64,000 nucleotides of DNA, taken from positions 1 to 64,000 of the forward strand of contig JAWPHD010003092.1 of the NCBI GenBank assembly GCA_037043455.1, read 5' to 3'. The DNA is from Cyrtodaria siliqua. Lineage: Eukaryota > Mollusca > Bivalvia > Adapedonta > Hiatellidae. The notes under the pieces were generated by a model. That model searched no databases and was not told the DNA's origin. It was given only the letters and a program-made list of their open reading frames with translations. The position numbers and the translations under genes are program-made. This document shows, one piece after another, positions 19,257 to 64,000 of this stretch (position 1 is the stretch's first letter; the number at the start of each line of letters is the position of its first letter).

Positions 19257-19375
19257 CTTGTTTATCCAATGTAAAAAAAGTTTTTGTGTCCACGTCCTCC
19301 CTGTTTTCAACTGATTGTTCCAAAACTTTACAAGTTGCTTTAATCCGTAAACATTGATCATGTATTACGGCCATT

Positions 19376-39689: not shown

Positions 39690-41381
39690 CCTAACATAAT
39701 TATGGCACATGTTGCATGATGTTGTCTAATGATGCTGAATTACACGTGTGAAGTTTCAATCTATTATGTCAAGTAGTTTTCGAGATACAAGCTTACATAC
39801 AAAACTTCAACCAAATTTTCCAAGTATAAAAAGGGCCATAACTTTGTTTAAAAGCAGGAGTTGTAGAACCTGACTGCATGATGTTGTCTAATGATAATGA
39901 ATACATGTGTAAAGTTTCAATCCCAGAGTGGATTTTCAAAAGTCACTTGCCCTGCCCATAATGTCACTTGCCCCACAAATTGGCGCTGGCCATTATTCGT
40001 GTTAAACGGGACGGACCGCCGCATAATTTGGATCATTATACTTAGTTAGAAAAGGAAGGGAGAATGTATTTTCTTCTTTTGTGTCTATTACATTTTTGTG
40101 TTACTTAAATCATAAAATGATGAGACAGTATACAACCTCATTTTATTCTGCCCTCCCACCCCACACAACCCCATCATTTTTGATGACCATCCAAAAAAAA
40201 AGCTTGGCAGCTAGTGTATGGAACTTTTAATGTCACAGTGTGTACAGTTAACCTTTTGACAGAAAAAAAAGAAGCTATTGTATTCATTTAAATGTGCGAC
40301 AAGCAAAGAAACAAGACAAAAACGTTATTAAAAATATTCACTTGGGCCCCAATTTCTGCAACCGTGGTAACATTCCTACGGCTTTGTATTTTAACTAAAG
40401 GGAATTATATGAAAGCAAGAGGCATGAATAGGGGTTCCCTAGGAATTGTTTAAGAATTAGTAGCAGTGACCTTATTTATCAAAAGCGAAAGTTCAGAACT
40501 TGAGAAAATGTTCCGTGATTGGTTTTGAAATCGCGAAAACCCATGACATGCGCATATCGCTATGTTATGTAACTTATTTGTGTAGTATGCAATTCCATGT
40601 ACGTTTAATTACAGATTATATCAATGAAATACACCAAATACCTCATAAAAGCGCATTGGTAAACGAGTGCTTCGAGTAAAAATAATGTATTTTCGTTACG
40701 AAACAATCTTCGGCAAAATTATCGAAACAAAAACATAACGTCACGTGGGTCTGTCAATCATTATTTTGACACATTAAATTTGCAAATTAAGAAAGAGTTT
40801 TCTAATTTGATTGGTGAAAGGTCCAAATGACGTTCAGAGATTTCTGAATTTATGGTTGGAAGGTCACGGACATAATTGCCGCGATTTCATTGGCCGATGG
40901 ACACACGTCTGACGGTCGTGTCAGGATTGTTGTTTTCAAACGGTGTGAAATGCGCGTGTGGGTTAATTAGGTTGTTTATTGAAATAATGCCACAAATTAA
41001 GCTGCCTGGGGCGAGATTGTTGATTTGTACCGAAAGTTGTTTGATCTTATTAACAATTGCTAGCGGCGAAAAACAGCGGCAAGTTTTATTCAGTTATCAA
41101 AATGAAATTCTGATATGGCTAGTTTGTCACTTGATTTGTTCTGGAATGGAAATGTCCGTCGGGCAAGTGGCGGGCAACCAGATTTGCGAAGGTCACTTGC
41201 CCGCACCCAAAATCCACTTGCCCGGGGCGTCGGGCAACCGTATTTCCGGAACCCTGAATCCATTATGTAAAGTAGTTTCGGAGATGCAAGCTTACATACA
41301 AATCTTTAACCGGACACGGACGACGACGACGACCAAGTGATGACAATAGCTCTTTTTTTCTTCGAAAAAGTAGAGCTAACA
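39690..41381 (+). mobile_element. Helitron-like element (GATGTTGTCTAATGATG family), split by an insert
   Basis: Left part 39690-39923 and right part 41257-41381. Units carry GCATGATGTTGTCTAATGAT and AAGTTTCAATC(T/C)ATTATG then AAGTAGTTTTCGAGATRCAA. The 3' end has (GAC)n, TAGCTCTTTTTTTC, a hairpin arm GAAAAAGTAGAGCTAA, matching the GTAGAGCTAA end of the other families. Its end abuts the start of the next element at about 41378. Confidence 0.6.
39924..41256. mobile_element. 1.33-kb non-autonomous DNA element, 5-bp target duplication
   Basis: AATCC flanks both sides (39919-39923 and 41257-41261). The element starts CAGAGTGGATTTTC and ends GGAACCCTG. The neighbouring repeat unit at 39757-39770 shows the same site without insertion (CAATCTATTATG). 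Both ends contain CACTTGCCC / GGGCAAGTG words. No transposase; the 154-codon open frame at 40876-41340 crosses the right edge and has no family resemblance. CAG-type ends with 5-bp duplications would fit hAT5-like elements. Confidence 0.65.
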
Positions 41382-41505
41382 AGAGGTCAATGCTCTTGAA
41401 GCTCTTCTGACAGGTTCTGATAGCTAAATCAGCATACCGGTGAAGTTTCATGAAAATCTGTCAAGTTGTTTCAGAGTAGTCATTACAAGTTTTATATATA
41501 ACCCT

Positions 41506-44367
41506 CAGGGCTTCTAAAATTTTAAAATGCAAATCGGTCCAGGTTTTTTACTGCCGCAAGAATCGCACTTATTTTGAAAATCGCCTTACCCCACCCACCA
41601 TGTCAGCTGCACCATGCATTTTTTCCGTTTAGTCATTTATATAGAGAACTATATAAAATTTATGTTTGTATTATATTTGTATTATTTATAACTTACTTTA
41701 TCACAATTTGTACATTTTAATGACTGACATCATGTCTTCGCTTTACTGAATGAATAACTTTCACTCAATATTAAAATTGTTGATCATTTGAGGAATTGAA
41801 CCGGAAGTGTCTAATAAACCGGAAGTCGCGTGAAGAATCACCGTGGTAACCAATGTAATTTAGAGGCAGTCGAGTTCATTTGTCGGTTCTAACATTTTGT
41901 TTGATCACTTTCATTATTTAATGTCATTAATATTATTAATGTCATTAATATTATACGTAAAGTTATTGTAAAAAAAAAAATCAAAGTAACACCGCTCGGT
42001 ATTTTAATTTTTTTTAATGATGCAAACAAATTTCAGTCCCAGCTTTGGCCACTTAAAAAAAAAAGAGGTCAATGACCTTGAAGCTCTACTGATTGATTTT
42101 GATTTCAGGAAGTAGTGACTACAAACTTGATTTTTGAAAATCTATTTTTAGCCGTGGTGGCCATATTGAATTTCCGGCCGACCTGAAATTTTGCTAGGAT
42201 CAATTAGACATCAAGAGCAACATTTCTGTGAAGTTTCATGAAAATCCGTCAAGTACTTTCAGAGGAGTAGTCGCTACAAGTTTTCATTATATAACTCTAT
42301 GTAAACAAAGATGGCCACTGGCAGCCATGTTTAACGTCGAATCAAAATAATGTTCAACTCGGATAACCATCATGTCATGCTGATCATTTTAGAAAAAGTC
42401 CAATATCAATATCTCTTAAAGTTTTCAAGAAGTCGTCGCTACAATCTTATTTTTTTTTAATCTATTTTTAGCCGTGGCGGCCATCTTGATTTTCCGGCCG
42501 ACCTGAAATTTTGCTAGGATCAATAAGACATCAAGAGCAACATTCCTGTGAAGTTTTATGAAAATCCGTAAAGTAGTTTCAGAGTGGTAGTCTCTACAAG
42601 TTTTCATTATATAACTCTATGTAAACAAAGATGGCCACTGGCAGCCATGTTTAACGTCGAATCAAAACGATTTTCGACAAGGACCAACATCATGTCATGC
42701 TGATCATTTTAGAAAAAGTCCCATGTCAATATCACTTATAGTTTTCAAGAAGTAGTCGCTACAAACTTGTATTTTGAAAATCTATTTTTAGCCATGGCGG
42801 CCATCTTGAATTTCCGGCCGACCTGAAATTTTGCTAGGATCAATTAGACATCAAGAGCAACATTTCTGTGAAGTTTCATGAAAATCCGTCAAGTAGTTTC
42901 AGAGGAGTAGTCGCTACAAGTTTTCATTATATAACTCTATGTAAACAAAGATGGCCACTGGCAGCCATGTTTAATGTGGAATCAAAATAATGTTCGACTC
43001 GGATAACCATCATGTCATGCTGATCATTTTAGAAAAAGTCCCATATCAATATCACTTATAGTTTTCAAGAAGTAGTCGCTACAAACTTATTTTTTAAAAA
43101 TCTATTTTTAACTGTGGCAGCCATTTTGAATTTCTGGCCGATCTGAAATTTTGCTAGGATCAATTAGACATTAAGAGCAACATTCCTGTAAAGTTTCATG
43201 AAAATCCGCCAAGTAGTTTCAGAGGAGTAGTCGCTACAAGTTTTTACTATATAACTCTATGTAAACAAAGATGGCCGCTGGCAGCCACGTTTAACGTCGA
43301 ATCAAAACAATTTTTGATAAGGACCAACATCATGTCATGCTGATCATTTTAGAAAAAGTCCCATATCAATATCACTTATAGTTTTCAAGAAGTAGTCGCT
43401 ACAAACTTGTATTTTGAAAATTTATTTTTAGCCGTGGCGGCCATCTTGAATTTCCGGCCGACCTGAAATTTTGCTAGGATCATTTAGACATCAAGAGCAA
43501 CATTCCTGTGAAGTTTCATGAAAATCCATCAAGTAGTTTCAGAGGAGTAGTCGCTACAAGTTTTCATTATATAACTCTATGTAAAAAAAGATGGCCGCTG
43601 GCAGCCATGTTTAACGTCAAATCAAAACGATTTTCGACAAGGACCAACATCAAGTCATGCTGATCATTTTAGAAAACGTCCCATATCAATATCACTTATA
43701 GTTTTCAAGAAGTAGTCGCTACAAACTTGAATTTAAAAAATCTATTTTTAGCTTTGGCGGCCATCTTGGATTTCACATCAACATGAATTTTTGCTAGGAT
43801 CAACTAGACTTCATGGGCAACATTTCTGTAAAGTTTAATGAATATCCATCCAGTAGTTTCAGAGGAGTAGTGGCTACAAATTAAAGTTAACGGACGGACG
43901 GACAGACGGACGGAACGGACGACGGACGCCGCACCACAGCATAAGCTCTGCTGATCTCTGATCAGTAGAGCTAAAAAACCGACACAAGCAAAGAGGCTAA
44001 CACCTTACGACTAACGGTATATCAAAGAAATTACAGACGGTAACACTCGCTTTAGTGAACCGACAGAACGCGTGATATACTTTCTCATGCTACCCAGCTA
44101 TAGACTCTTCCGGAAAACTCCCTACTATCGGTAATGGTTTAGTCCAAATTGACCTACTTTCGCACAGCGAGCGACAAACAGTCGTGTTATGGATCAAAGA
44201 ATATTGCAGCAAGGCATAGTTTAAGGGTAAAGGGCAATTGTAGATTTTTTAACGACCGATAGATAAAATATCTGGACAGATTTAAACAGAGATTTTGAAA
44301 AGAAAAACGGTCTGGAGAAACAGATTTCGGTCTGGGAACTGATAAACCGGCGATTTTAGAAGCCCTG
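41506..44367. mobile_element. hAT-like element with perfect 8-bp target duplication
   Basis: Perfect 15-bp inverted ends: CAGGGCTTCTAAAAT (41506-41520) and ATTTTAGAAGCCCTG (44353-44367). Perfect 8-bp duplication ATAACCCT at 41498-41505 and 44368-44375. CAGGG ends with 8-bp duplications are the hAT signature. No transposase; about 1.9 kb of the interior is another Helitron-like element (42056-43976). Related units read ATAACTCTATG at the same site without insertion. Confidence 0.85.
42056..43976 (+). mobile_element. Helitron-like element with six ~318-bp units
   Basis: Starts AAAAGAGGTCAATGACCTTG and GAAGCTCTACTGATTGATTT. The landmark GACCTGAAATTTTGCTAGGA recurs near 42180, 42500, 42820, 43140, 43460 and (diverged) 43780. 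It ends with an ACGG-rich microsatellite (about 43888-43925), CCGCACCACAGCATAAGCTC, a hairpin CTGATCTCTGATCAG and TAGAGCTAAAAA. It lies wholly inside the hAT-like element. No coding. Confidence 0.7.
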
Positions 44368-45317
44368 ATAACCCTATGTAAACAAAGATGGCCTCTGGTA
44401 ACGATGTTTAACGTCGAATCAAAATAATTTTCAGCAAGGACCAACATCATGTCATGCTGATCATTTTAGAAAAAGTCCCATATCAATATCCTTATAGTTT
44501 TCAAGTAGTCGCTACAAATTTGTGTGTTTTTTAAAAATCTATTTTTAGCCATGGTGGCCATCTTGAAATTCCGGCCGACCTCAAATTTTGCAAGACATCA
44601 ATTCTGTTAATTTTCATGAAAATCCTTCAAGTAGTTTCAGAGGCGCTGCATGTTTTTACTATATAATTCCATGTAAACAAAGATGGCCGCTGGCAGCCAT
44701 GTTTATGTCGAATCGAAATGATTTTCGATACGGACCAACATCATGTCATGCTGATCATTTTAGAAAAAGTCCCATATCAATATCACTTAGTAGTTTTCCA
44801 GAAATAGTTGCTACAAACTTGTTTTTTAAAAATCTATTTTTAGCTGTGGCGGCCATCTTGAATTTCCACCCGACCTGAAATTTTGCTAGGATCAACTAGA
44901 CATAAAGAGCAACATTCCGTCACGTAGTTTCGGAGTAGTCGCTACAAGATTTTACTATAACTATGTAAACAAAGATGGCCGCAGCCATGTTTAATGTCGA
45001 ATCAAAATGAAGGACCAGCATCATGTCATGCTGATCATTTTATAAAAACTCCCATATCAATATCACTTACAGTTCTCAAGAAGTAGTTGCTGCAAACTTG
45101 TTTTTTAAAAATCTATTTTTAGCCGTCTTAAATTTCATATCAACGTGAAATTTTGCTAGGATCAACTAGACATCATGGTCAACATTTCTGTAAAGTTTCA
45201 TGAAAATTCATTCAATAGTTTCAGAGGAGTAGTCCTACAAAAATGTTTACGGACAGACAGACGACGGACACCGCACCACGGCAGAAGCTCTGCTGACCTT
45301 TGATCAGTAGAGCTAAA

Positions 45318-46797
45318 AAATAAATAAGCAATTTGCACAACACTGCAGTTTTGCTGGTAATTAAGTTCTAGGCACATTCTGAATATTTTTATTTCGATGT
45401 ATACTGAGTGTTGGCATGGAATATTTGTTTCTGTTGGTGCCATGTTACTGTTGTGTTTGTCCACCATATTAACCCCATTCAACTTCACTTACTGCTTTAA
45501 TTGATTAAAACATAAAGGCTTAACTAAAGAGCCACAACTATGATCAGTAACATGTTTATTGCAGGGGTATTAGCTACATGCAATAAAATCAAACATAAAA
45601 TAATGGATTCTAATTCTTAACAACTCTTTAAAATGTTAATACTCTGCAAGTATATCATACAGACAGACATTTGTTAGGATTATGTATTACAATACACGCA
45701 CTCATACAAACCCAATTTGATCATGTAATAACATTTTCTTGGACACAAATTACTGGAAATTTCTGCGGACTTCTGCATTGGTTCTTCATGACGCTGTTCT
45801 ATCGAGATAATGTTGTTGTTTCTACATGAAGTTGTTGTTAATACATTGTATATGTTACAATATACCATGTAGCATTTCAAAGAATTTGATGGTCCAACAC
45901 TTGACCCATTGTAATTTATTATACACGTTTTGTTAAAACTTAATTACAGTCGAGACTTGTATTAAGCACCGACATATTAATAAACAGGTAGGAAAGTTCC
46001 TATCTTAACCAATGAAGTAACCAAAATATCATGTGGCACCTTAACTTTTCCTTCTATCTCCTCTCTCAATTATTCACTGATTTTGATGAGAATACATTCA
46101 AAAGATTCATAGTGAATAGCAAAATGGCATTATAATAATTTATATCTATTTTGAAAATAAGAAATTGTATAAAAAGATGTTATAAAGTTAAAAATGTCAT
46201 CATTTTTCTCTTAAAAAGCAAGGTTTTGACAATGACAAGTAAACGTTTCCGTCAAACTCCTTGTTTGCTCTAAATGTAAGAGAAAGAAAAATACTACCAC
46301 TTGAAAGAAAATTAAATTTGCGATGGGATTTGGCATGAATGAAACTATCTACAAAACTCATGATATGTGAGCTCAAGTTGGGAAATAATTTGTGAAATTT
46401 TCGCACAGTGCCACATGAAATTTAGATAATTTTTGTAGTGTCCACTCTATTTGTTATTTGCTTAATAAAACGGTCATGGAATAGAACGAATAGAAAACCG
46501 TATCCGAAAACAGCGTTATCTGAATTTGAGTCTACATTTAAAGTACCGTGACGAAAGCAAAAGCAAACATTCAGCTGAAATTTACATTGTAAATGCATGT
46601 TTTATGATATAGTTGTCTGTCTCAAACGTCAGTTTCGTATCAAACGTTTATTTCTCTCTTGTTTAACTGAATGGTCAACTGTTGAGTATTTATCAGTAAT
46701 TTTGCACGAGTGAAGGAAATTTAATGTTTGTTTTCCCTATAAAAGTCAAGGTCAATTATTATCTCAAATCTTGCGAGACCGCTCAACAAGAACACTC
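45318..46797. other. AT-rich interval, nothing recognised
   Basis: Short open frames only (up to 96 codons), without family features. No repeats that I can define. Confidence 0.4.
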
Positions 46798-46802
46798 GGC
46801 TA

Positions 46803-48203
46803 CAGGGGTGTACAAATCCTATAGCCCGACGCCCGGGACTAGTCCAAAACCAAAGTCGAGCGTGTCACTTTTTCAAAGATTTCAGTCCCGGATTAGTCCA
46901 ATTTTACAAAAAGAGAAAGTCGGGCGTGTCACTGTTTGAAAGATTTCAGTCCCAGATCCCAGATTTGTCCAATTAACAATGTCGGCCACTTGTCATAAAA
47001 CAACCCCAGCACACTTCTCAACGTAATCCTTCAATTGCACTCGCTTATTTAATGCAATTAGCATCCACAGCGGCGATTAGCGATTACCCCGGGCAGTTTT
47101 ATCAACAATCAACCATGCCGGAAGTGCCGCCTCCAAATTACTTTAATTGACAGTCGGCATTGTCGACATTATCCAATCAATTGACCCGATCTATTTTTAT
47201 CCAGACCCGCTAGCCAATGAAACGACTACTACAGGTAAATCACATGTTCGTCACGAGATTACCTGTTCGTCACGTGTTGAGCTGAAAATGGCGATACACT
47301 GAAACAATAACACTAACACGTTGATTAATTAGCAATCAGGCCGATTTGTCGGCAACCTTTCGATGAGTAAAGAAACTAAGGACTTTTGATAATGGAAGTA
47401 AAAATGGTAGGTGTGCTTTTTTTATTGTTTCTCAGTGTATTGTTGAGCGTAATTGTAAAAGACATGAAAGCACGTGGGGTAACGGTTTGTGCATAGTTAG
47501 TTTACTAATTACGTTCGAAGAATTGAGTTGCCAAAAAATTAAATAAAAACAAAACGAACTGATATACATAATCAGTTTGATTTCGTATTTGGCAGTGCTA
47601 ATGTTTACATTTCAAAATGAGTTTGTTGAACTTTTTCAGTGTTAAAAAAAGGAAAATATGAAAGCAAAAGTGAAAGTAAAAATGAAAAGAGGAAAAATGT
47701 AGAATGTGACGCACAGCCAATCTCAAAGTCAAAATCATCTGGTGTAGTGGACAAAAACATAAAAATAAAATGTTTATATTGATTCACGTTATTTTTTGCA
47801 TTAGGTAAAGTGGTAATAAAGTTAAGAATCTCATTTGTAGCCCCTTACCTATATAAAGTTATGACTTTTTTTCTCTCCATTAAATGATTATCTGAACTGT
47901 AATATGAAACAATATCTATATTGAAATTTAAAAATGCAGATGTGATTCTTACTGTTGCTACTGTTTCGCCCAAAGGCAGTCTACAATCTATACCACTGAA
48001 ACATACATTAATTGTCTGAAGAGCAAATAAGGATTTTTTCCTTTACTGTGTGTAATAAATTGTAATGAGTATGCAAGACGCAGTTTTAACATATTGAGAA
48101 ATCGTAAGAATTCAGGACTTGTGTCCATTGTTTGGGACTAGTCACTTTTGACAGGGTGACTAGTCCCGGACTAGTGTTTAAAAAAATTATTTGTACAGCC
48201 ATG
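46803..48203. mobile_element. 1.4-kb non-autonomous DNA element (CAGGGGTGTACAAAT)
   Basis: Left end CAGGGGTGTACAAAT and right end ATTTGTACAGCCATG are imperfect inverted repeats, flanked by GCTA (or GGCTA) at 46798-46802 and 48203-48207. Sub-terminal GGGACTAGTCC/ACTAGTCCC words occur at both ends (46844 and about 48139-48175). No transposase seen. Confidence 0.65.
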
Positions 48204-48207
48204 GCTA

Positions 48208-48702
48208 ATATCCTTCAAACAAAATAATCCTTTAATTAGGAATGACCGAGAATGTTGCGATTGATCCGATTGTCTTGCGACAAAAAATGTTGTTCACAAC
48301 TCTCCCACTTCAACTGATAACAAATAAAGGCGTGATTATCCAATTTGGACATGATAAGCCAATAATTTATGATTTGATAATCCACTTATCTCATTAGCAG
48401 TGGCTTAATGATCGAAATTATTGATATTTGGTGTGAAAACAGACGGTCGATGGTCGCGGTAGATGGTCGCGTAAGGCAAAAGTCGCTTAATGCACTTAAA
48501 ATATAGAAGGAAAATGATCGGGGGGACTCAGATGTGGCCGTATCAGACAATTCGTCACACGTTGTTGCATGAGCAAATTGACTGTTTTGAAAGATTTGTG
48601 CATATTTTGCTGTTCGCTTGCTATAGGAAAAACTTTATCAGCAACAAAAGAATTGAATATTCAATCAATTGCATTTAATCAGTATTACAAAGTAATTGAA
48701 AA
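48208..48702. other. Interval downstream of MRE11, nothing recognised
   Basis: AT-rich with a GGTCG word cluster near 48445-48470. No gene. Confidence 0.35.
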
Positions 48703-48703
48703 A

Positions 48704-48880
48704 GGGCTATTCCATTAAAACATACCCAGGACCCAGGAAAGAAATTTAATATAAAAAAATATGGGTGAATCATATTTTCTGAATTTTGTTTCTTTAAACT
48801 CAATTTTGCAGATCTATCTGGATGTTCAATTTGAAAAGTGCCTCCCTTGGGGTCCTGGGTATGTTTCAATGGAATAGCCC
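48704..48880. mobile_element. 177-bp MITE (GGGCTATTCCA ends)
   Basis: GGGCTATTCCATTAAAACAT at the left and ATGTTTCAATGGAATAGCCC at the right, with ACCCAGGACCCAGG / GGGGTCCTGGGT just inside. The inverted ends are about 36 bp with few mismatches. A second copy lies at 61831-61995. It lies about 285 bp beyond the MRE11 stop and may be transcribed in its 3' UTR. Confidence 0.75.
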
Positions 48881-49164
48881 TAATCAATAAACTATATATT
48901 AACAACTGAAAGTACAAATATTCACTCTACGACCTTTCATGTTGACTTACAAAATCATATACATGCTCTAGTAGTCCACAAATACAAAAGTAAATACACA
49001 CAATCACAAATTCATCATTTTTCACACACCTTATGTTGTATGTAAGAAACCTATTTATCTATCATGAAGGATCTTCTGAGCAATTTGCAATTTTACTCTT
49101 CCATTATTCTTTTGAATCAATAGCACAATGATTTTATATAACACCCTAATTTCAACATCCTACA

Positions 49165-49369
49165 TCATCGTTTCCTCTTTTTCGTAGGGAAGTCATCATC
49201 AGAGTCCGAGTCAAACATAATGCCACCTCGTTTTGCTGGTGGTTTACCACGTGGTGTGGGTTTTGACTTGGACTGTTGTGGTTTGCGGTTGGAACTTGCT
49301 GGCATATTGAAGGGGTCGTCGTCACTAGAATCTGATAAAATTATCGCGGCTTCTTCTTCTGATTCGGAC
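49165..49369 (-). CDS. MRE11: MRE11 last exon and stop codon
   Basis: After TTGCAG it encodes [40 protein letters not shown], a Gly/Pro/Lys stretch and [16 protein letters not shown], then TGA. Human MRE11 also ends in an acidic DDDDDPF segment followed by basic residues. The KKRKR end could serve as a nuclear localisation signal (inference). Confidence 0.94.
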
Positions 49370-52300
49370 CTGCAATATAAAATGTACTAGTACATTCTGC
49401 ATTCTTTACCAATACCAGCATGACTGTGTATATGGAATATGGAACTAATTTGAAAGTCACTTAATCACAAACTAGAAACGCCCCCACTATTATCTTAAGT
49501 AAGGACTAACTCCTACAAAAGTCAATGGACAGGAACAGCTTGACAGTATGTGCAACTAGACTTCATATTGAAACTAACTCCCTACCAAGTCTGTTCAAAA
49601 GTTCACAAATAGGCCGAATGTGTGATCTATGTTGAAAGGGTTTTGTATGTACAAAGTGAGTCAACGGACCAGAACAGCATGACGATGTGCCCAACTACAC
49701 GTCATACAAATACTTTCTATCAAGTATCGCCAAAATCGGGCGAGAAGTTCAGAAGTAAGCCGAACAAGAAAGTGTGCAAGTATCATTTACGTACAAGCAG
49801 TTGATAAAAAACTGGGTATTCCTTATTTCGTTCATGTTTTGATATGCTTTCACTGGAATTTAAATGCGTAGAAAATTTAAGTTTTTTAATAGGGTATTTA
49901 CACAAATACGCTATTCATCTGTTGCTTTGGTGATGTACATAGTTCCTACGAAGTGTCGGAGAAATCTGTTGGAAAGTTCAGGCGTAGACTGGATAAGATA
50001 GTGTGACTTGCATACAGAAGTATGACATACGAACGGACAAAGTGTGATGCATGAACGTACGAACAGACACGGGGAACACTTTATGCCCCTATATATGGCG
50101 AGAGGCATAAAAAAGCTAGGTTGTACAACTGTTTAATAAACGTCATTAAGAACTGAATTGTTGTCAACACATTTATTTTTTTAAGCTGCCCCAGAGTTAG
50201 GGCAGGATACATAGAGAATATTATGTCAGTGCCTTTTACTATCAAGTTTATTAGGAGAGGCTTAGAAAACAAAGAATGGCGGTGCTCTGCCCAGCCATTC
50301 TTCGTTTTCGTGCCGAGCCTTATAAACTTGGTAGTAAAAGGCATTGACATAACATTCTATTTATCATGTAGATTATCCATTTTCCTTTTTTTTATGTCAT
50401 CAGATAACGTTACGTACACGACGTCAGATAACGTTACTGGTCAGTACCTTATTTATTGGTCAGTACCTAATAAAGCAAAATTTATTTGGTCTCCCCTTTA
50501 TTAGGCAGAAAAGTGCAAATCTGCATGATAAATAGGTTTCAGGGAACTAAAAGTCAATGAACTGAACAGCGTGTTAATATGTGTATTTATGAAGTATTAT
50601 GAGTGTAGGATTAATAGTGTCATAGAAAACGGTCCAAAATGAAGATCAAGTTCTGGCATGGTGACCTAATTTTAGATATGGAGGGGTTGTCAACATCAGT
50701 GTGTGGTAAAAGTTTGAACATATATGTATGTATACAGTTTGAAGACTCTATGTTTTAGAGACTGATGTCATACTTCTCAACATAGACTCTTCCTACCTGA
50801 ACCTTCAAATGGTCATCTCTTCCTTGTTTATAAACCAATTTTATTACTGTTTCATCGTTTACCAAGCTACAAATATATCAACATTCCCTTTACATGGGCT
50901 CTATAATAAGAACGACTGAAACAGTCTGATGCATTAATTATATAAAACCCACAACCCAATTATGAGGACAAAATTATTATCAAGCTGTCGTACTATGCAC
51001 TTTGTTATTTTAAATAGGCCAAATAAAAGTGTAGTTCTTTTTGGGCAGTTTTTGCCAAACCTAATTGCTTTTCTGGTAAAATTACGAACATATGTGGGTC
51101 AAATAATCTTCCTCAGAAAAAGATGCAACTCCAGTAAGGTTAAATCTGTTTCCTATTTTACCGACCTACCTATTTTACCGACCTACCATTCCTATTTTTT
51201 TCCCAAATGTAACCTGAACCACATATATTATTGTTTTTGGCCATTTCAAGAAAAATTAACCCAACTTACATATATTGGGACTTCTTCGGGGCGGCCTTCT
51301 TTGACCTTCCAGAGGACACAAACGAGTCCATGATGGACTTCTGACTATCTTCTACGACCGGGTTCTTACTCTTTGCACCTCTCCCCCGTCCTCTTGTCCC
51401 CCGTGTGCTTGTAGTTTCTCCGCGACCTCCTCGTGATGCACGACCACCACGTGAACGTGAGCCTCGACCACCACGTCCGCGACTAGTAGACACCTCGCTT
51501 TCATCAGAATTGTTTCCATTCATCTCTACATCGCTGTCTATAGTCACGTCTTCATCCTTGGGACGTTTCACGTGGGCTCGCTTGATTGCCTCTGCTACTT
51601 CATCGTCATCTTCGTTCTTCTTTTTCCTGTCATCTTTGTATCTTTGAACCTCATCATCTATAACATCTTCATTTGTGCTTCTCTGCTTTAGGTACCCCTT
51701 AAATATGGAATTTAAAAGTTGTCAAGAAAATCCCACGGGCAGTCTCGACAGTTTTTGTTCAATTACCAAAAATCTAGTTTGGCAATGCAGGTTTTCAGAA
51801 GCACGACAGTTTGTTTTGTTTAACTCACAATCTTAAGGTCTCACAACACTATTATCTGATTCTCCCATGAATACTCGTGCCCTACAGATGAAGGAGGTAG
51901 ATAAAAAATCCGCTTTTGTACATTTTACAGGATACATTGATTTATCTTTACCAGGTTCTAAATCTACAGCATTTTAGGAAGAGATCACAGAAAAATTCAT
52001 GTTGATATAAGATTTCTAGCTAATTCTGCGTCATTTTACACAGCATGGATCTAATCACCACGGGGTTGTAATTTGTCTAAATTTTGATATGTGTCACGCA
52101 ATCATGAAATTAAAAAAAGTTCAAGCTGGTAAATATTTGTTAATTTTGTTTCAAATTGCAGATATTGGATCAATGAAGGAGTTCAGCATAAATACATTTT
52201 GTAAATTTTTTTTTATCTCTATGCCATTACAATGGGACCCTATGGAAAACTAATAGTGGTGTGTGACCTTAAACACAATTACTTTATCACAACAAATGTA

Positions 52301-55300
52301 TTGTGATTGGATACAAGAGGGTCGTTGTCTTGCCTGGTAACCTAACCCTTAAGTATTGAACAACTAGGACTGTCACCCTTTGGGGGTCGACTTATATGCC
52401 CCTGCTACCGACTTCATTGGTATATGGTGCAGCGGTTGGTGACATCAAACTATTGACACCTAAATCAATAGGAGTGTCCTACTCTCACTGAGGACAGTAT
52501 GCCTGTGAAGTTTCATGACTATGACTAAGAAGGTCGAGGAGTTGTTCAAGATCAGATAACAAGATCATATAACAGTGACCGTTCAACCAAAAACCAATAC
52601 AGGTCCTCGCTCATAAAGTGTGACTACAAAGTCGAAGAGTTATGGCGCTCACAAGGTTTTTGATGACTGGGTCATGTTGACCTTTGAATACTGACCCCAA
52701 AATCAATAGGGGTTCTCTTACCAGGGACAGTTTTTCTGTGTGTTTTTTTATAAGATTTTGTGACAAAGTGTAACAAGTTATTATATAGGTAAGTTTTTCA
52801 TGATCAGATAAAGGTGACCTTGACTTTTGACCTACTGACACCAAAATCTATAGTGATTGTGCTATCAATGAGGAAGTTTCACAAGTGTAACTATAAGGGT
52901 TGAGTTATGCAGACAAGGTTGTGTCTACAGACGGATATGCCGAATTCAATATACTCCCGACTTTGTGGTGTGTAGGTACAACAAGGAAGAAGGACTGAGT
53001 ATTGCACCTGTGTTTTTTCAAGCCAGTACTGTGTGGTGTGTAGGTATAACAAAGAAGAAGGACTGAGTATTGCACCTGTGTTTTTTCAAGCTGGTACTGT
53101 GTGGTGGGTAGGTACAACAAAGAAGAAGGACTGAGTATTGCACCTGTGTTTTTTCAAGCTGGTACTGTGTGGTGGGTAGGTACAACAAAGAAGAAGGACT
53201 GAGTGTTGCACATGTGTTTTTTCAAGCCGGTACTGTGTAGTGTGTAGGTACAACAAAGAAGAAGGACTGAGTATTGCACCTGAGTTTTTTCAAGCTGGTC
53301 CTGTGTGGTGGGTTAGGTACAACAAAAAAGAAGGACTGAGTATTGCACCTGTGTTTTTTCAAGCTGGTACTGTGTGGTGTGTAGGTACAACAAAGAAGAA
53401 CCGAGTATTGCACCTGTGTTTTTTCAAGCTGGTACTCTGTGGTGGGTAGGTACAAAAAAAGAAGGACTGAGTATTGCACCTGTGTTTTTTCAAGCTGGTA
53501 CTGTGTGGTGGGTAGGTACAACAAAGAAGAAGGACTGAGTATTGCACTGTGTTTTTTCAAGCTGTTACTGTGTGGTGGGTAGGTACAACAAAGAAGAAGG
53601 ACTGAGTATTGCACCTGTTTTTTTCAAGCTGGTACTGTGTGTTGGGTAGGTACAACAAAGAAGGACCGAGTATTGCACCTGTTTTTTTCAAGCCGTTACT
53701 GTGTGGTGGGTAGGTACAACAAAGAAGAAGGACTGAGTATTGCACCTGTTTTGTTCAAGCTGTTACTGTGTGGTGGGTAGGTACAACAAAGCAGAAGGAC
53801 TGAGTATTGCACCTGTTTTTTTCAAGCTGTTACTGTGTGGTGGGTAGGTACAACAAAGAAGAAGGACTGAGTACTGCACCTGTGTTTTTTCAAGCCGTTA
53901 CTGTGTGGTGGGTAGGTACAACAAAGAAGAAGGACTGAGTATTGCACCTGTTTTTTTCAAGCTGTTACTGTGTGGTGGGTAGGTACAACAAAGAAGAAGG
54001 ACTGAGTATTGCACCTGTTTTTTTCAAGCTGGTACTGTGTGGTGGGTAGGTACAACAAAGAAGAAGGACTGAGTATTGCACCTGTTTTTTTCAAGCTGGT
54101 ACTGTGTGGTGGGTAGGTACAACAAAGAAGAAGGACTGAGTATTGCACCTGTGTTTTTTCAAGATGGTACTGTGTGGTGGGTAGGTACAACAAAGAAGAA
54201 GGACTGAGTACTGCACCTGTGTTTTTTCAAGATGGTACTGTGTGGTGGGTAGGTACAACAAAGAAGAAGAACTGAGTATTGCCTGTGTTTTTTCAAGCTG
54301 GTACTGTGTGGTGGGTAGGTACAACAAAGAAGAAGGACTGAGTATTGCACCTGTGTTTTTTCAAGCTGGTACTGTGTGGTGTGTAGGGACAACAAAGAAG
54401 GACTGAGTATTGCACCTGTTTTTTTCAAGCTGGTACTGTGTGGTGGGTAAGAAGGACTGAGTATTGCACCTGTGTTTTTCAAGATGGTACTGTGTGGTGG
54501 GTAGGTACAACAAAGAAGGACTGAGTATTGCACCTGTTTTTTTCAAGCTGGTACTGTGTGGTGGGTAGGTACAACAAAGAAGAAGGACTGAGTATTGCAC
54601 CTGTGTTTTTTCAAGATGGTACTGTGTGGTGGGTAGGTACAACAAAGAAGAAGGACTGAGTACTGCACCTGTGTTTTTTCAAGATGGTACTGTGTGGTGG
54701 GTAGGTACAACAAAGAAGAAGGACTGAGTATTGCACCTGTTTTTTTCAAGCTGGTACTGTGTGGTGGGTAGGTACAACAAAGAAGAAGGACTGAGTATTG
54801 CACCTGTTTTTTTCAAGCTGGTACTGTGTGGTGGGTAGGTACAACAAAGAAGAAGGACTGAGTATTGCACCTGTTTTTTTCAAGCTGGTACTGTGTGGTG
54901 GGTAGGTACAACAAAGAAGAAGGACTGAGTATTGCACCTGTGTTTTTTCAAGATGGTACTGTGTGGTGGGTAGGTACAACAAATAAGAAGGACTGAGTAA
55001 TGCACCTGTGTTTTTTCAAGATGGTACTGTGTGGTGGGTAGGTACAACAAAGAAGAAGGACTGAGTATTGCCTGTGTTTTTTCAAGCTGGTACTGTGTGG
55101 TGGGTAGGTACAACAAAGAAGAAGGACTGAGTATTACACCTGTGTTTTTTCAAGCTGGTACTGTGTGGTGTGTAGGGACAACAAAGAAGGACTGAGTATT
55201 GCACCTGTTTTTTTCAAGCTGGTACTGTGTGGTGGGTAAGAAGGACTGAGTATTGCACCTGTTTTTTTCAAGCTGGTACTGTGTGGTGGGTAAGAAGGAC

Positions 55301-58300
55301 TGAGTATTGCACCTGTTTTTTTCAAGATGGTACTGTGTGGTGGGTAGGTACAACAAAGAAAAAGGACTGAGTATTGCACCTGTGTTTTTCAAGATGGTAC
55401 TGTGTGGTGGGTAGGTACAACAAAGAAGGGATGAGTATTACACCTGTGTTTTTTCAAGCTGGTACTGCACAAGTTCCCCGATGGCATCTCTCTCCTCTTT
55501 GTCAACAAACTCCTTAACAGCGTCGCCGATACCTTTCTCCGTCAACACCTGAAGCTTCAGTTTCTGAAACAGAGATGTAATAACATGAGAGAACGGGGAT
55601 ATGGCGTCTTCTGAATTCTAACATGTCAGCATCTTGAGAAGTTGAACAAACAAAATGAGTTTTTTTCTCAGTCTCTGCTGACAAGTTAGTTATTACAAGA
55701 AGAACAATTACCTTTAATCCTTTTGTAAGTATTGGTAACTGACTATTTGTCAACTACTAAAACAATATTAGCTGAAACTTAAATAAAGAGAATTTTTATC
55801 TTAAATTAGTGCTCCAGATAACTTAAATAACCATGTATTTCATGAGATTATTATCAGATATTGTATAAAACACATCTGTATCAAGTATTAAAGTACATAT
55901 TTGTCCCAATATTTTAAAAGGATAACATATGCCACATAATCAAGTTTTTATGTAGATATAGATGTTTATGTGTTCTTTGAAAGTTTTCTTCAAATCAGAG
56001 ACACCAGCTATTTAAAAAATAAGCATTTAGATCTCTTTAATTTTTTGATTTATTTAGTAGGTGATACTGTGGTCTGTATGCACTGTTCATACTGATAATC
56101 TTGAGAACATCTGATTTCCTGAAATCCCATGATTCCTAGGTATTTTTTGTAACAAGCCTCAATTTTCAATGTTTTAACTGATATATGTTTAGTCTAATTA
56201 ACAGGTTTGTAATAACAGATCTAAAGTTTTCATCAATTAATAATTAGTAAAGAACTAAAATTTTAATACTGGAAAAAAATATGTGAAACAAATTAACAGA
56301 TTTATTATAAAAGAGTTAATGTAACGAGTTAAGGCCCACAGGATTTTATTAATCTGCACTTTGTATGTAATAATATTAGGCAAACGTTCGCAGTAATGCT
56401 ATACACTTTTGATTAGTACAGCACAGGGTTTCCCCCAGAACATTGTGAAGGCATGCTGTTCTGACATTACATTTACCAAACTGGGCTTGAAAAAAATAGT
56501 GCCTATTAATGACAAAATGGCAAAATGGCAAAATAACATACTTTTATGATTTTGGTGCAAAAGGAACAAGAATCACCATAGAAATTCTATTTTTCTTCTT
56601 TAAAACCTGTTATTCATGAAAATTAAGAAAATCTTAAGGCATGTTGCTCTGATGAAGGCATGTTGTTTTTCCTTTCTTTTCCAGGAAGGCATGTTGCATG
56701 CGACATGCCTTATGATCCTGGGGCATGTTGCATGCGACATGCCTTATGATCCTGGGGGAAACCCTGCAGCACATGGATAAAAAACATCATCTGAAGCACT
56801 GCTTAAATATATACTCAATTTTCAATGTTTTAACTGATATATGTTTAGTCTAATTAACAGGTTTGTAATAACAGATCTAAAGTTTTCATCAATTAATAAT
56901 TAGTAAAGAACTAAAATTTTAATACTGGAAAAAAATATGTGAAACAAATTAACAGATTTATTATAAAAGAGTTAATGTAACGAGTTAAGGCCCACAGGAT
57001 TTTATTAATCTGCACTTTGTATGTAATAATATTAGGCAAACGTTCGCAGTAATGCTATACACTTTTGATTAGTACAGCACAGGGTTTCCCCCAGAACATT
57101 GTGAAGGCATGCTGTTCTGACATTACATTTACCAAACTGGGCTTGAAAAAAATAGTGCCTATTAATGACAAAATGGCAAAATGGCAAAATAACATACTTT
57201 TATGATTTTGGTGCAAAAGGAACAAGAATCACCATAGAAATTCTATTTTTCTTCTTTAAAACCTGTTATTCATGAAAATTAAGAAAATCTTAAGGCATGT
57301 TGCTCTGATGAAGGCATGTTGTTTTTCCTTTCTTTTCCAGGAAGGCATGTTGCATGCGACATGCCTTATGATCCTGGGGCATGTTGCATGCGACATGCCT
57401 TATGATCCTGGGGGAAACCCTGCAGCACATGGATAAAAAACATCATCTGAAGCACTGCTTAAATATATACTAAGTTTGTCTTACTTCATCGGCCTGGTCA
57501 AAGTATTGCTTCACCATGTCCTCAACGCGACACTTGTCAGTTTCTACAATGATGTTTTCAAACTCCTCATCACCTGACAAATAACAAGCAGATATTAAAA
57601 CCAATCACCAACATATTGCTTTCTGCTGCTACATGTATGCCATTAAGGCAGGCAGCTAAAAGAGACAAAGAGCAAGTCATTGTTCCCAAACAACATCAGG
57701 GCACGAAAACACTCGTCCGCTGGCAATGACCAGTGCTCATGGATGCAGGATATTATGTAGGATGAGTAACTCAGAAACAAATTTTCCTGCCCTGAAAATC
57801 ATTCGTCTCTATCTACCATTTGATACCTGGACTATGAAAGTAACCTTTCTGATTTAATAGATAAATATTCCAAAATATACATGTAAGGCCTAAAAAAAAA
57901 AATTGTTTGTTTCCACTGACATGGCCAAAAAAAATAGGGTCGGTAGGTAGGCAAATAATTTTATTTTTTTAAATATTTTTTTTTAAAGAAAACCTCATAA
58001 ATATGCATCTTCTTCTCATGTTTGGTGTACAACTGAATGTATAATCACTCTGATGATGTATATAATGTTATATGGTTGTATTTAAATGTTAATATATGAA
58101 ATAAATACTTACTGTTCATGTTTACATTTGTTGCTTTTTTTATTTCCAAGTTTAATGCTGACTTCTGGCAACGGCATAATTTCACTTTTAAAAACTGAGA
58201 TATTAAAGTGTCTTTCATATTGTACTTTAATATCAGTGTGCATCTACATATGAAGTTTTAAGACCCTAGGCAGTACCTTGTCCATTCTATGACCAATTCA

Positions 58301-61300
58301 AGGCTTAACTATTAGAGGTCACAGTGACCGTGACCTTTTACCTACTGACCTCAGTGTTTATAGGGATCATTTACTGGTGGGGGGTCACTGAAGTTTCAAG
58401 ACCATTCACCAAAGGGTTAAGAAGTTATATTGTCAGACAAAGTTTGTGGACGGACAGACAGACTGACTGACTGACAGACAGACAGAGTGATTTAATCGGA
58501 CTGATATCACAGGCAATTAGTATGTACATGTATGTACAGACCGTCACACCTGTAACATGTCAGAGAAATATTAATTATCTTTTGACAGAATTTATTTTAT
58601 TATTTTTCTCAAGCAAAATTATGCAAATAAAATGTCAATTAAAATCATGTTTGTCATCATCATACTTATACTTTGAGACAAAAACAATATCATATTTTGA
58701 TGATCTCAAAAATCCTTTGATATCGCTAATTTAGTGCAGTACGACCTAATGTGGGTGGGGTGTAGTCCATGGTGCCTTTAATAGCTTCAGAAAAGTATAT
58801 ATGCACTTATTTTAATATACACATACCCATCACTTTTCAATACGATACATATCTATTAAAATATAAAAAATATGCTGCAAAACTCACACGTTTTCAACTG
58901 ATTCATACCTTCAATAACCATGACAGACCTTTTTGGATTAAAAAAATAATATTTAATCCATATTAACTACTCAAACGAGGAAAGAAAAACAAAAATAATG
59001 CCGTTTAAATTAATATCAGAATTCATTTAGTAATAAAAAAGTTATTGCAGTTTAAACTCTTAACATCTTTTATTTTTATCTGCCAGATTTTGTGTATAAA
59101 CAACCCGCGTCATCAGCTGAAGAGTGAATTGCGCTCTACTACTTTCAACAGTTACGTGTAACACCTGCTTTATTTGTAGGCATTGCGGTAAAATGCGCTA
59201 ATAGATAAAAACAAAAGACAACATGCTTTTTAAAGAGTAAAAAAAATGCTTTCCAATGGTATATGACCGCCCCTTCACATCGGATTATTTCTATGTGAAA
59301 CTAGGCCTCAAAGTTGATCAACTTTGACCTCGATTTAAAAATAGAATGAATCAAAATTTTCCACTACATTTTGTTGTCATATATTACCCATAGTTCCATG
59401 TAACATTATCATCTAATTTGAATAATGAATTTCATTGGTTATCCAAAGAAAACACCATTACATCACAAGCACCCTTCTGCCAGGAGCTAAAAATAGCGAA
59501 CAGGTTTTCCGAAATCCGTCGCGCGTGCAATTTTCAGAAAACGTTTCTTCTATGATACTGGCTAGAAATTTACAGGTTAAGACATCAAAGTTATAAATCT
59601 GACTTTAATTGACAATATGACTTTATTCTGATAATTTTTAAGCCATTATTAACAGAGATATTGGTTATTAAACTTGACCTATTTTGCATTGAGGCAGATA
59701 GGAAACTCAAATATGGCGGATCTTCTGTCATGGTTACCTTCAATCTCGAAACTTTCAGATTTCTCAATATTCGTCTTGCATTTCACTTTGCAAGTAATCG
59801 TTTTGTCACGAGATTTTCCCTGGCTGTGATTTTCTTCAAATATTTCCTGTAACAGCTTTGTGTACGGAATGTTTTTAATTAGTTTTTTTTCCTCGGAGTG
59901 CTGGCATTTGTGAAATGTTAAAGCAAGAACAGAGGCAGCGAACGAGCAGGGCGCCGCCATCTTGTTTGTATAAAGTTGAAAGTTTATTGCGCGGCGCCGA
60001 AAAAATATCCGGCCCGATTTTGCGGCCAAAAAAAGTTTAGGGTCGGCGGCAAAAAATTAGGGACGGTCGGGCCGCCGGAAACAAACAATATTTTTTATTA
60101 CGCCTAATAACATTTTCTGAACTAGAAATATGTCCATGGGACATGGATGCCCCCACGGAAATCATAAAACTTTATGAAAGGGCTGTGACTCAGCTACTAC
60201 AGTCGATTGTGACATGGTATTGATATGCACATCCTGTAAAGTTTCGGAACAATCGTTGAAAACTGTGGGAGGAGATTGACACACAAGATTTTTAACATAA
60301 TATTTGAAGGAAAAACAAATGGCCTAACTCCGGTTATGCCAGGGTGAATTTGATGCGGAATCGATATGGGTATCTTGATATCATAGGTAGACATCCTGTA
60401 AAGTTTCCAAACAATCGGTTGAAAACTGTGGTAGGAGATACACAAACATTTCAGGACAAACTTATGCAACAATAGACTTAATGGTTTGGAATAAATCGTA
60501 TAAAATTCCTTTATGTTAAGCCATACTTCCTATCATCTAAGGTAGTGAATGTTTACGCGGACGGACATGGCTAACGCTATATCCTCCCTTACCATTCGGT
60601 GGTGGGAGCATATAAAGGAAATACTTTTCATAATTGTACTTAGGATCAGTGTATACAACAATACATTGCTTAACATTGTACCCATTCACATTGTTACCAT
60701 TGACATAATTCCCATTGACATCGTTCCCATTCACATTGTTCCCATGCAAGGTCTGGACAAGTAAACTTTGTGTTTTGACTTGCAGTATAAAACTGGTCAA
60801 CCTTCACAGATTTAATAGATCAACAAGCCATACATTGCCTTGGAACATGCAAAATATAATAACATTTTTTGAAGAAAGGAATCACATTTCACAATTGCAA
60901 GCAGGTACAACACACAACACGAGAGTTTATCAGGGTTCAAATCCAGTACTCACAAACTTGTAAAATGGTGTGTAGATTTGAACAAATATGAGTTGAACTT
61001 TTCAGCACTCACAAAAAAACTGTGATCTTTTATGTGCAAGGTAATTAGCATGATTAAAAAATTGAAACAGAAAAACAAAAGCAGTTTGCGGACACATGTC
61101 TTTTACAACACAATCTTATATAAGTATTGTATAAACTATTTATGAGCAGAAAAATGTCTGACCAAAAGGAGAAAAACATGCCACTAAGAGTGCATTTTTG
61201 TGAATTTCATCAGTATCTGCGCTGGCAAATAAAAGCAAGTGGATAAAAGTTAAATTCTCTCCCCGAGTTTTATCAAATTATGTAAGCAGTGAATACCTTC

Positions 61301-61394
61301 TCCTTTTGGCTCTTTCTTTGTTACAGCTTTCTTTCTCATGAAGTAGATCATGTCCTTTGGGTTTGCCACCCTGTCAACAAACTTCTGGCCAAAC
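49165..61394 (-). CDS. MRE11: MRE11 double-strand-break repair nuclease, 3' exons (partial gene)
   Basis: Five exons on the - strand: 61394-61297, 57573-57485, 55563-55444, 51697-51270 and 49369-49165, with the stop at 49167-49165. All borders are GT/AG and all phases join. Protein landmarks in human order: [71 protein letters not shown], a Gly-Arg-rich tract ([20 protein letters not shown]), then [18 protein letters not shown] and KKRKR. MRE11 is the nuclease of the MRE11-RAD50-NBS1 complex that senses and trims DNA breaks in the nucleus. The phosphodiesterase domain lies beyond the right edge. The Gly-Arg tract is a methylation and DNA-binding site in the human protein. This copy appears intact here. 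Confidence 0.96.
49440..50115 (+). mobile_element. Helitron-like element ending in a TATGCC hairpin
   Basis: Two diverged units: (CCAGAACAGCATGACGATGT; GGACAGGAACAGCTTGACAG) and (AGTTCAGAAGTAAGCCGAAC; AAAGTTCACAAATAGGCCGA). Then come ACGAACGGACAAAGTGTGAT, CGTACGAACAGACACGGGGA and an end with hairpin TATGCCCCTATATATGGCGA plus GAGGCATAAAAA (50091-50112). Located in the last MRE11 intron. No coding. Confidence 0.5.
50216..50357. repeat. 142-bp near-perfect hairpin
   Basis: GAATATTATGTCAGTGCCTT... (50216-50280) is the near reverse complement of ...AAGGCATTGACATAACATTC (50294-50357), with a loop of about 13 bases (GGTGCTCTGCCCA). Arms of about 64 bp carry few mismatches. Either a foldback MITE or a long-stem transcribed hairpin; it lies in an MRE11 intron. 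Confidence 0.8.
51270..51697 (-). CDS. MRE11: MRE11 exon with Gly-Arg-rich segment
   Basis: A 428-bp exon. It starts [20 protein letters not shown] after a weak acceptor (CCATATTTAAG), continues [20 protein letters not shown] and an acidic stretch, then at least ten RG/RGG dipeptides, and [20 protein letters not shown]. It ends in phase 2 before GTAAGT. The Gly-Arg tract corresponds to the human GAR motif. Confidence 0.95.
52300..52925. repeat. Dispersed repeat with tandem 'GTGACCTTTGACCTACTGAC' units
   Basis: Units carry GACCTTTGAATACTGACCCC, AAATCAATAGGGGT and GAAGTTTCATGACTATGACT. It is related to 58270-58500. It sits between MRE11 exon 51697 and the minisatellite. No coding. Confidence 0.5.
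52961..55467 (-). repeat. MRE11 splice-junction minisatellite, ~38 units of 67-68 bp
   Basis: On the - strand each unit reads CAGTACCAGCTTG, an A-run, (CA)CAG, GTGCAATACTCAGTCCTTCT, TCTTTGTTGTACCTACCCAC and CACA. The first 24 bases equal the 3' end of the MRE11 exon at 55467-55444; the next bases equal its donor and intron. The rightmost unit overlaps the real exon. Two length types occur: 68 bp (AAAAAACACAG) and 67 bp (AAAAAAACAG), plus shorter deletions lacking part of CAACAAAGAA. Blocks offset by 789 bp share rare variants, showing a higher-order duplication. Open frames through the array reflect exon-derived sequence, not a separate gene. Confidence 0.95.
55444..55563 (-). CDS. MRE11: MRE11 exon whose 3' end seeded a minisatellite
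   Basis: A 120-bp exon, phase 0 at both ends, after GTTTCAG. It encodes [32 protein letters not shown] and QYQLEKTQ, matching human [20 protein letters not shown]. The donor is GTGTAATAC at 55443. The last 24 bases (QYQLEKTQ) plus the donor and adjoining intron are the source or one copy of the repeat unit that fills 52961-55467. Confidence 0.95.
56424..56766. mobile_element. MITE with perfect CAGGGTTTCCCCCAG ends (copy 1)
   Basis: Left end CAGGGTTTCCCCCAG and right end CTGGGGGAAACCCTG are perfect inverted repeats, flanked by CAGCA on both sides (5-bp duplication). The right part has two tandem copies of GGCATGTTGCATGCGACATG then CCTTATGATCCTGG, itself palindromic (CATGTTGCATGCGACATG). Non-coding, hAT5-like by ends and duplication length (inference). 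Confidence 0.75.
57080..57422. mobile_element. MITE with CAGGGTTTCCCCCAG ends (copy 2)
   Basis: Second copy of the element at 56424, carried along by the 656-bp segmental duplication rather than by its own insertion, since the flanks are identical as well. Confidence 0.75.
57485..57573 (-). CDS. MRE11: MRE11 exon ([10 protein letters not shown])
   Basis: An 89-bp exon after TTGTCAG, encoding [20 protein letters not shown] and KQYFDQADE, before donor GTAAGA. It matches human RVEDLVKQYF. A 656-bp tandem duplication in the intron ends only 15 bp from its donor side. Confidence 0.95.
57885..60107. mobile_element. 2.2-kb non-autonomous DNA element (TTGTTTGTTTCC sub-termini)
   Basis: Left end AAGGCCTAAAAAAAAAAATT then GTTTGTTTCC. 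The right end is the reverse complement form GGAAACAAACAATATTTTTT then ATTACGCCTAA. Both ends carry TAGGGTCGG and GGCCAAAAAAA words in inverted order (57935-57955 and about 60025-60045). The interior holds a 'GACCTACTGAC' repeat with a GACA microsatellite (58270-58495); no transposase. Lies in an MRE11 intron. Confidence 0.6.
60117..60620. repeat. Dispersed repeat (ATATGTCCATGGGACATGGA)
   Basis: Starts with palindromic TGTCCATGGGACA. It has two units with CATCCTGTAAAGTTTCSRAA, CAATCG and TTGAAAACTGTGG then AGGAGAT, a short GCGGACGGACATGG microsatellite-like stretch, and CCTCCCTTACCATTCGGTGG. Another Helitron-like family by layout. Confidence 0.5.
60675..60746. repeat. 15-bp minisatellite (CCCATTCACATTGTT)
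   Basis: About five copies of CCCATTSACATYGTT in an MRE11 intron. Short open frames across it are repeat artefacts. Confidence 0.75.
61297..61394 (-). CDS. MRE11: MRE11 exon ([11 protein letters not shown])
   Basis: A 98-bp exon after TTTTCAG, encoding [20 protein letters not shown] and [24 protein letters not shown] is identical to human MRE11. It leaves one base that joins GT of the next exon as Gly. Confidence 0.95.
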
Positions 61395-61607: not shown

Positions 61608-61800
61608 AACCTTGTGGAGCGCTGTGGTTTAGGATAGATCGTTGGACCCATGATCCAAAAGTCGTAGGTTCGATTCCCGCTATTGCCATTATATGCATTG
61701 TGTCCCTGAGCAAGACACTTTATCTGCATTGCTTAGTACTGGTTCTACCCAGGAAGACATCGAGAGTGATTCAAATACGTTCATAGAGCTTTCGTTACAA
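61608..61800 (+). mobile_element. tRNA-derived SINE
   Basis: A-box-like TGGTTTAGGAT (61624-61634), perfect B-box GGTTCGATTCC (61667-61677), then a body ATTGTGTCCCTGAGCAAGAC and ACTTTATCTGCATTGC, a motif common in metazoan SINEs. The 3' tail is not well defined. Located in the MRE11 intron at the right. Confidence 0.75.
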
Positions 61801-62336: not shown

Positions 62337-64000
62337 TGCATTCAATGACCTTGAAGCTCTACTGATTGATTTTGATTTCAAAAAGTAGTCGCTACAAACT
62401 TGTTTTTTGAAAATCTATTTTTAGTGGAGGCCATCTTGAATTTCCGGCCAACCTGAAATTTTGCTAGGATCGATTAGACATCAAGAGCAACATTCCTGTG
62501 AAGTTTCATGAAAATCCGTCAAGTAGTTTCAGAGGAGTAGTCACTACAAGTTTTCATTATATAACTCTATGTAAACAAAGATGGCCGCTGACAGCCATGT
62601 TTAACATTGAATCAAAATAATGTTCTACTCGGATAACCATCATGTCATGCTGATCATTTTAGAAAAAGTCCCATATCAATATCTCTTATAGTTTTCAAGA
62701 AGTAGTCGCTACAAAACTTATTTTTTAAAAATCTATTTTTAGCCATGGTGGCCATCTTGAATTTCCGGCCGACCTGAAATTTTGCTAAGATCAATAAGAC
62801 ATCAAGAGCAACATTTGTGTGAAGTTTCATGAAAATCCGTCACGTAGTTTCAGAGGAGTAGTCGCTACAAGTTTTCATTATATAACTCTATGTAAACAAA
62901 GATGGCCACTGGCAGCCATGTTTAACGTCGCATCAAAATAATGTTTGACTCGAATAACCGTCATGTCATGCTGATCATTTTAGAAAAAGTCCCATATCAA
63001 TATCACTTATAGTTTTCAAGAAGTAGTAGCTACAAACTTATTTTTTTTAAATCTATTTTTAGCTGTGGCGGCCATCTTGAATTCTGGCCGATCTGAAATT
63101 TTGCTAGGATCAATTAGACATCAAGAGCAACATTCCTGTGAAGTTTCATGGATATCCGTCAAGTAGTTTCAGAGGAGTAGTCGCTACAAGTTTTCATTAT
63201 ATAACTCTATGTAAACAAAGATGGCCGCTGACAGCCATGTTTAACATTGAATCAAAACAATTTTTGACAAGGACCAACATCATGTCATGCTGATCATTTT
63301 AGAAAAAGTGCCATATCAATATCACTTATAGTTTTCAAGAAGTAGTCGCTACAAACTTGTATTTTGAAAATCTATTTTTAGCCATGGCGGCCATCTTGAA
63401 TTTCTGGCCGATCTGAAATTTTGCTAGGATCAATTAGACATCAAGAGCAACATTCGTGTGAAGTTCCATGAAAATCCGTCAAGTAGTTTCAGAGAAGTAG
63501 TCGCTACAAGCTTTCATTATATAACTCTATGTAAACAAAGATGGCCGCTGGCAGCCATGTTTAACGTCGAATCAAACGATTTTCGACAAGGACCAACATC
63601 ATGTCATGCTGATCATTTTAGAAAAAGTCCCATATCAATATCTCTTACAGTTTTCAAGAAGTAGTCGCTCCAAACTTATTTTTTAAAAATCTATTTTTAG
63701 CCGTGGCGGACATCTTGAATTTCCGGCCGACCTGAAATTTTGCTAGGATCAATTAGACATCAAGAGCAACATTCCTGTGAAGTTTCATGAAACTCCGTCA
63801 AGCAGTTTCAGAGGAGTAGTCGCTACAAGTTTTCATTATATAACTCTATGTAAACAAAGATGGCCGCTGGCAGCCATGTTTAACGTCAAATCAAAACGAT
63901 TTTCGACAAGGACCAACATCATGTCATGCTGATCATTTTAGAAAAAGTCCCATGTCAATATCCTTTAGAGTTTTCAAGAAGTAGTCACTACAAACTTGTT
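62337..64000 (+). mobile_element. Helitron-like element with ~318-bp units, runs off the window
   Basis: Starts near TGCATTCAATGACCTTGAAG and CTCTACTGATTGATTTTG. The landmark GAAATTTTGCTARGATC recurs near 62455, 62775, 63095, 63415 and 63733. Very close to 42056-43976 in sequence. Its 3' end lies beyond 64000. It occupies the MRE11 intron upstream of exon 61394. Confidence 0.7.

Follow-up and report, generated by a model that had tools for sequence, protein, structure and literature searches.

What kind of structure repeats the end of a coding exon of the DNA-repair gene MRE11, together with its splice donor, dozens of times in the intron that follows, and would the copies play any part in splicing? 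We addressed this question for an array in the window (the whole stretch of 64,000 nucleotides analysed here), beginning with the gene that carries it.

Four MRE11 exons were located, all on the minus strand; the edges of exons a, b and d were read by eye. Exon a (61297..61394, 98 nt) encodes part of the Mre11_DNA_bind domain (Pfam PF04152, E 2.5e-8) and corresponds to residues 372-414 of human MRE11. Exon b (57485..57573, 89 nt) fits the joined frame and the human alignment, and its match to human MRE11 when taken alone is non-significant (-1.9 bits). Exon c (55444..55563; 120 nt, 40 codons, phase 0-0), the founder of the array, is flanked by TTTCAG and GTGTAA and matches human residues 445-482 (E 4.2e-12), and its 40 residues alone hit no Pfam family. 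Exon d (51270..51697) encodes the RG-rich tail and matches human residues 484-630 (E 1.1e-8). Its acceptor, TTTAAG|GGG, was placed by eye, and its far end is uncertain, since the position reads either as a donor (AT|GTAAGT) or as a stop codon.

Joined across the array, exons a to d form one open frame of 244 residues that aligns with human MRE11 381-629 (E 2.5e-46). The join between exons c and d is free of gaps (KTQ|GYLKQR against KTQ|RFLKER in human), which places the array within an intron. This intron is 3746 nt long, and the array takes up 2480 nt of it (66%). Because the joined frame is open, a transcript that skips the array would yield a normal MRE11 over this stretch; from protein conservation only, we infer that real transcripts do so. 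A missing small exon within the array was considered and set aside, as the joined alignment needs no extra exon between c and d. When the three frames of 40001-52980 were compared with solved structures, one returned MRE11, one nothing, and one a weak unrelated match (E 0.13). A search with ten short motifs of animal MRE11 proteins gave two matches, at 46217 and 22114, both outside the gene stretch.

Two other features lie in the gene stretch. The intron between exons b and c holds an exact direct repeat of 658 nt (56158-56815 and 56814-57471, offset 656 nt), with 13 nt between its right edge and the end of exon b; it reflects either tandem duplication in the very recent past or an error of assembly. 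Just upstream of exon a, on the opposite strand, a tRNA match of 34.7 bits (61618-61688, plus strand) could represent a genuine tRNA or a SINE derived from one.

The array consists of 38 tandem units on the minus strand, running from 55467 to about 52964, with unit starts from 55467 to 53031. The consensus unit is 68 nt, of which 24 nt are exonic and 44 nt intronic. Thirteen units have the consensus length, 11 are 67 nt, and 13 others fall within 54-69 nt; the final unit, 77 nt as found, includes nine flanking nucleotides. Tandem Repeats Finder described the same stretch as a 134-nt double unit in 19 copies. Units share a mean pairwise identity of 88% with gaps counted, and 28 distinct sequences occur among the 38. 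At its left margin the array passes into different intron sequence (CACCACA/AAGTCGGGA). A blastn search of the consensus unit against the rest of the window (E up to 0.1) listed no match outside the array. The preliminary description had counted about 38 splice-site copies downstream of the real donor; 38 is the total number of units, and since the rightmost is the junction of exon c itself, the downstream copies number 37 (52964..55402).

The relationship between the units and the exon is direct. The last 24 nt of exon c, CAGTACCAGCTTGAAAAAACACAG (55467-55444, encoding QYQLEKTQ), recur at the head of every unit, with 24 of 24 bases identical in eight of the 37 copies and small changes in the other 29. 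Chance similarity between unit and exon, which had been named as grounds for abandoning the idea, is thereby rejected. The first unit (55467) is continuous with exon c, so the authentic junction forms the edge of the cluster and the real exon end is the rightmost copy, as had been proposed. Upstream of the shared segment the likeness ends abruptly at CAG: the exon reads ..GAACTTGTG, the copies typically read ..CCCACCACA, and the two are unrelated. What precedes CAG in the copied units is the tail of the previous unit, typically CCACCACA. On its intron side the real donor reads GTGTAATAC (55435..55443), where GTG TAA would bring an immediate in-frame stop unless spliced. The conservation of exon c between this gene and human MRE11 sets the direction of copying, from exon to array. 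The human match and the joined frame thus bear out the earlier reading of the array as derived from an MRE11 exon-intron junction and placed in the intron beyond the real donor.

A transposon or dispersed repeat as founder is unsupported, given the conservation of the exon with human MRE11 and the lack of any other listed match to the unit in the window. There is no microhomology at the exact break of the founding join (exon ..GTG/CAGT, intron ..CACA/AAGT); AGT is common to both sides one base beyond it.

Every copy had been described as carrying an authentic 5′ splice site. This holds in part: AG|GT is intact in 33 of the 37 copies, whereas GT is gone from two (u07 and u19), one G is missing from u30, and u35 reads AT|GT. 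A single copy has CAG|GTGTAA, the string of the real donor, and 28 of the 33 intact copies read CAG|GTGCAA. Using the U1 5′ end as pairing partner, we predicted a duplex energy of -6.7 kcal/mol for the real donor; among the 33 copies, 29 reach -6.8, one is at -6.7, and three, which read GTGCAG, are at -9.5, a value that may be a pairing artefact. Pairing in every intact copy is therefore at least as strong as at the real donor. For exons a, b and d, the exon ends gave -5.7, -4.5 and -5.4 kcal/mol, the last for an uncertain exon end. Sites of this strength are scarce nearby, with two of 80 GT sites in the remainder of the array-bearing intron and none of 93 in the preceding intron reaching -6.7. 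As the real donor has no advantage by U1 pairing, its choice would have to rest on position or exon context. Recursive splicing through a zero-exon site is unsupported, because A-rich bases precede AG|GT.

The copies also carry an acceptor-like sequence, a part absent from the preliminary description. CACAG directly precedes the exon piece in 36 of the 37 copies, after a pyrimidine-rich stretch, and the AG is found in all 37. Positions -25 to -5 hold 14-16 pyrimidines of 21 in the copies, and 13, 14, 15 and 13 of 21 at the real acceptors of the four exons, in the order a to d. Since the join between units supplies CACAG in front of the exon piece, each unit resembles a 20-21-nt exon with both splice sites, a pseudo-microexon as well as a donor copy. 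Of the 33 copies with AG|GT, 16 have a 21-nt exon piece, stop-free in 15 of them, and 17 have one of 20 nt; an in-frame stop occurs in five of the 33.

We compared variation in the exonic and intronic columns of the 37 copies. The mean minority fraction was 0.030 in exonic and 0.017 in intronic columns, so lower exonic variation was not found (1375 of 10000 permutations gave a difference as large), in a test that is rough because related copies are not independent. By this rough measure there is no sign of coding selection on the exonic columns. Unchanged columns number 14 of 24 in the exonic part and 30 of 44 in the intronic part. The AG of the pseudo-acceptor is invariant in all 37 copies, and the donor GT columns are free of substitution in the 35 copies that have them; such constancy might point to use, but it is shared by many other columns. 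Over lags of 1-19, units 12 apart are the most alike, with a mean edit distance of 4.19, compared with 4.84 for neighboring units (lag 1) and 4.92-6.95 for all remaining lags. Units u04-u13 differ from u16-u25 by 0-3 edits per pair, at a spacing of 789 nt. A block of 10 units, at a 12-unit spacing, was evidently duplicated on top of unit-by-unit growth.

These features could be read as a set of optional microexons, in which splicing would add one or a few blocks of seven residues (phase 0; YQLEKTQ or YHLEKTQ) to the protein, beyond the helix with which exon c closes. The 15 stop-free 21-nt pieces, pyrimidine counts like those of the real acceptors, and U1 pairing as good as at the real donor and the other exon ends agree with such use. 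Coding microexons would, however, be expected to be open, to keep the frame and to be under selection, whereas 17 of the 33 pieces would shift the frame, five contain stops, and exonic columns are not conserved above intronic ones. In addition, only about 47 nt separate a donor from the acceptor of the next unit at consensus length, and exons of 20-21 nt are very short for exon definition. We consider this reading quite improbable. Its stronger form is highly improbable: here the array would be a reservoir of seven-codon, phase-0 microexons that vary in number between individuals and give MRE11 variable YQLEKTQ-type blocks beside that helix. Were it true, expansion of a splice-junction minisatellite would be a route to new exons, observed while under way in a gene for double-strand-break repair.

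The array might instead act through RNA-binding sites, with many sites for U1 and for pyrimidine-tract proteins slowing or tuning MRE11 splicing and copy number altering the MRE11 level. The crowding of 33 donor-like sites of real-donor strength into 2.5 kb, against their scarcity in the surrounding introns, would suit this, as would the CTTCTTCTTT-like tracts found in most units. The motifs show no excess conservation, however, and comparable amphioxus arrays are reported to leave splicing undisturbed (PMC3087553, PMC3902484); such modulation seems very unlikely. Assembly could also be at fault, either for the array itself or for its copy number. The exact duplication in the preceding intron (56158 and 56814) might be an artefact of haplotype merging, in which case local assembly errors are possible. 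The array, by contrast, has 28 distinct units among 38 in an ordered succession of variants, a pattern that spurious multiplication of a single junction would not be expected to give. Misassembly is thus extremely unlikely as its source, although the exact unit number could be off despite the variant pattern.

In the reading we favor, and hold to be highly probable, the array is a minisatellite of the "mirage" type within an intron, which arose by duplication of the junction, is spliced out with the intron and evolves neutrally. A segment of 68 nt, made up of the final 24 nt of the MRE11 exon and the first 44 nt of the intron, would have been duplicated in tandem, and the array would then have grown by unequal exchange or slippage, with the block duplication coming later. 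Selection on MRE11 would have maintained the exon's own copy of the junction, and the copied donors and acceptor-like sites would be by-products. The real donor would be joined to the real acceptor of exon d, and the array would leave with the intron. The 20-nt pieces, the stops and an exonic variation that is not lower than the intronic fit such neutral turnover of a minisatellite that is presumably spliced out.

Other repeats and elements occur elsewhere in the window. Three arrays of 319-320-nt units lie at 7731-9308, 42103-43879 and 62376-63997; GACG/ACGG microsatellites come after the first and second arrays, and the third reaches the window end. The second and third are 92% alike, and the first is about 59% similar to both. 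A half-unit similarity (65% over 122 nt) was found in the first array, and none in the other two. The layout is reminiscent of the "pearl"-type elements of bivalves. Between 22079 and 33293, where four of the eight ORFs scanned had a Pfam match, we identified fragments of retrotransposons, namely ORFs encoding RNase H, endonuclease and reverse transcriptase domains, as well as an ORF with a YqaJ domain. An Rfam SECIS_1 element is located at 24721-24781 on the plus strand (39.4 bits, gathering threshold 35). When 15001-24722 was scanned against Pfam in the three plus-strand frames, allowing readthrough of TGA, no family reached E 0.01; the exons of the corresponding selenoprotein, if there is one, could be short.

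The array is a test case, provided by nature, for how the first donor prevails, since 33 decoys with a near-identical exon flank and U1 pairing no weaker than that of the real donor follow it in the same intron. Donor choice is usually explained by site strength and context. If this intron is spliced normally, position and exon definition would outrank site strength. So extended a series of decoys, no weaker than the donor itself and placed in a core repair gene, merits study at the RNA level.

Literature searches combining MRE11, bivalve, intron and tandem repeat returned no report, and no MRE11 array appears in the titles or abstract openings of the matches listed, which come from a collection with a minority of subscription papers. 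Arrays across exon-intron boundaries are known from amphioxus as mirages, in Adh3, BflGb6, BflGb9, TnC and PGBD5 (PMC3087553, PMC3902484), the latter source adding PGBD5 and TnC. Their unit sizes are quoted as 10-72 nt for Adh3 and 150-160 nt for the globins, and BflGb6 haplotypes have six and three units (PMC3087553). AG/GT occurs in many but not all of their copies, RT-PCR indicated that regular splicing is undisturbed, and mirages were proposed as a source of new introns (PMC3087553). The MRE11 array shares with them a unit that spans the exon-intron boundary, an authentic junction beside the copies at the cluster edge, AG/GT in many but not all copies (33 of 37 here), and homogenized units with divergent cluster edges. 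It differs in its host gene, in its 68-nt unit and in its length, with 38 units against the six and three of the BflGb6 haplotypes. Mirages can thus reach dozens of units and, if the animal is not a lancelet, would extend outside cephalochordates.

In intron gain via tandem genomic duplication, a duplicated exonic segment becomes an intron (PMC3443670). The MRE11 array is similar in that copying of AG|GT produces new potential splice sites, and differs in that its copies sit within an intron. In human segmental duplications, internal tandem repeats at exon-intron boundaries form novel introns (PMC2812944). They too are minisatellites that straddle the border of an exon and can open new splice choices, but they average four units of 30 bp, lie in recently duplicated primate genes and are backed by transcripts (PMC2812944). 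The preliminary description had called a minisatellite of this origin rare. As to kind this was overstated, given the published amphioxus mirages and their human relatives (PMC3087553, PMC3902484, PMC2812944), and neither rarity in kind nor a functional consequence is supported. Measured against the parts of these reports cited here, the MRE11 array is a real, clear and long case of a known but little-studied phenomenon, the mirage, with more units than the counts quoted for others of its type.
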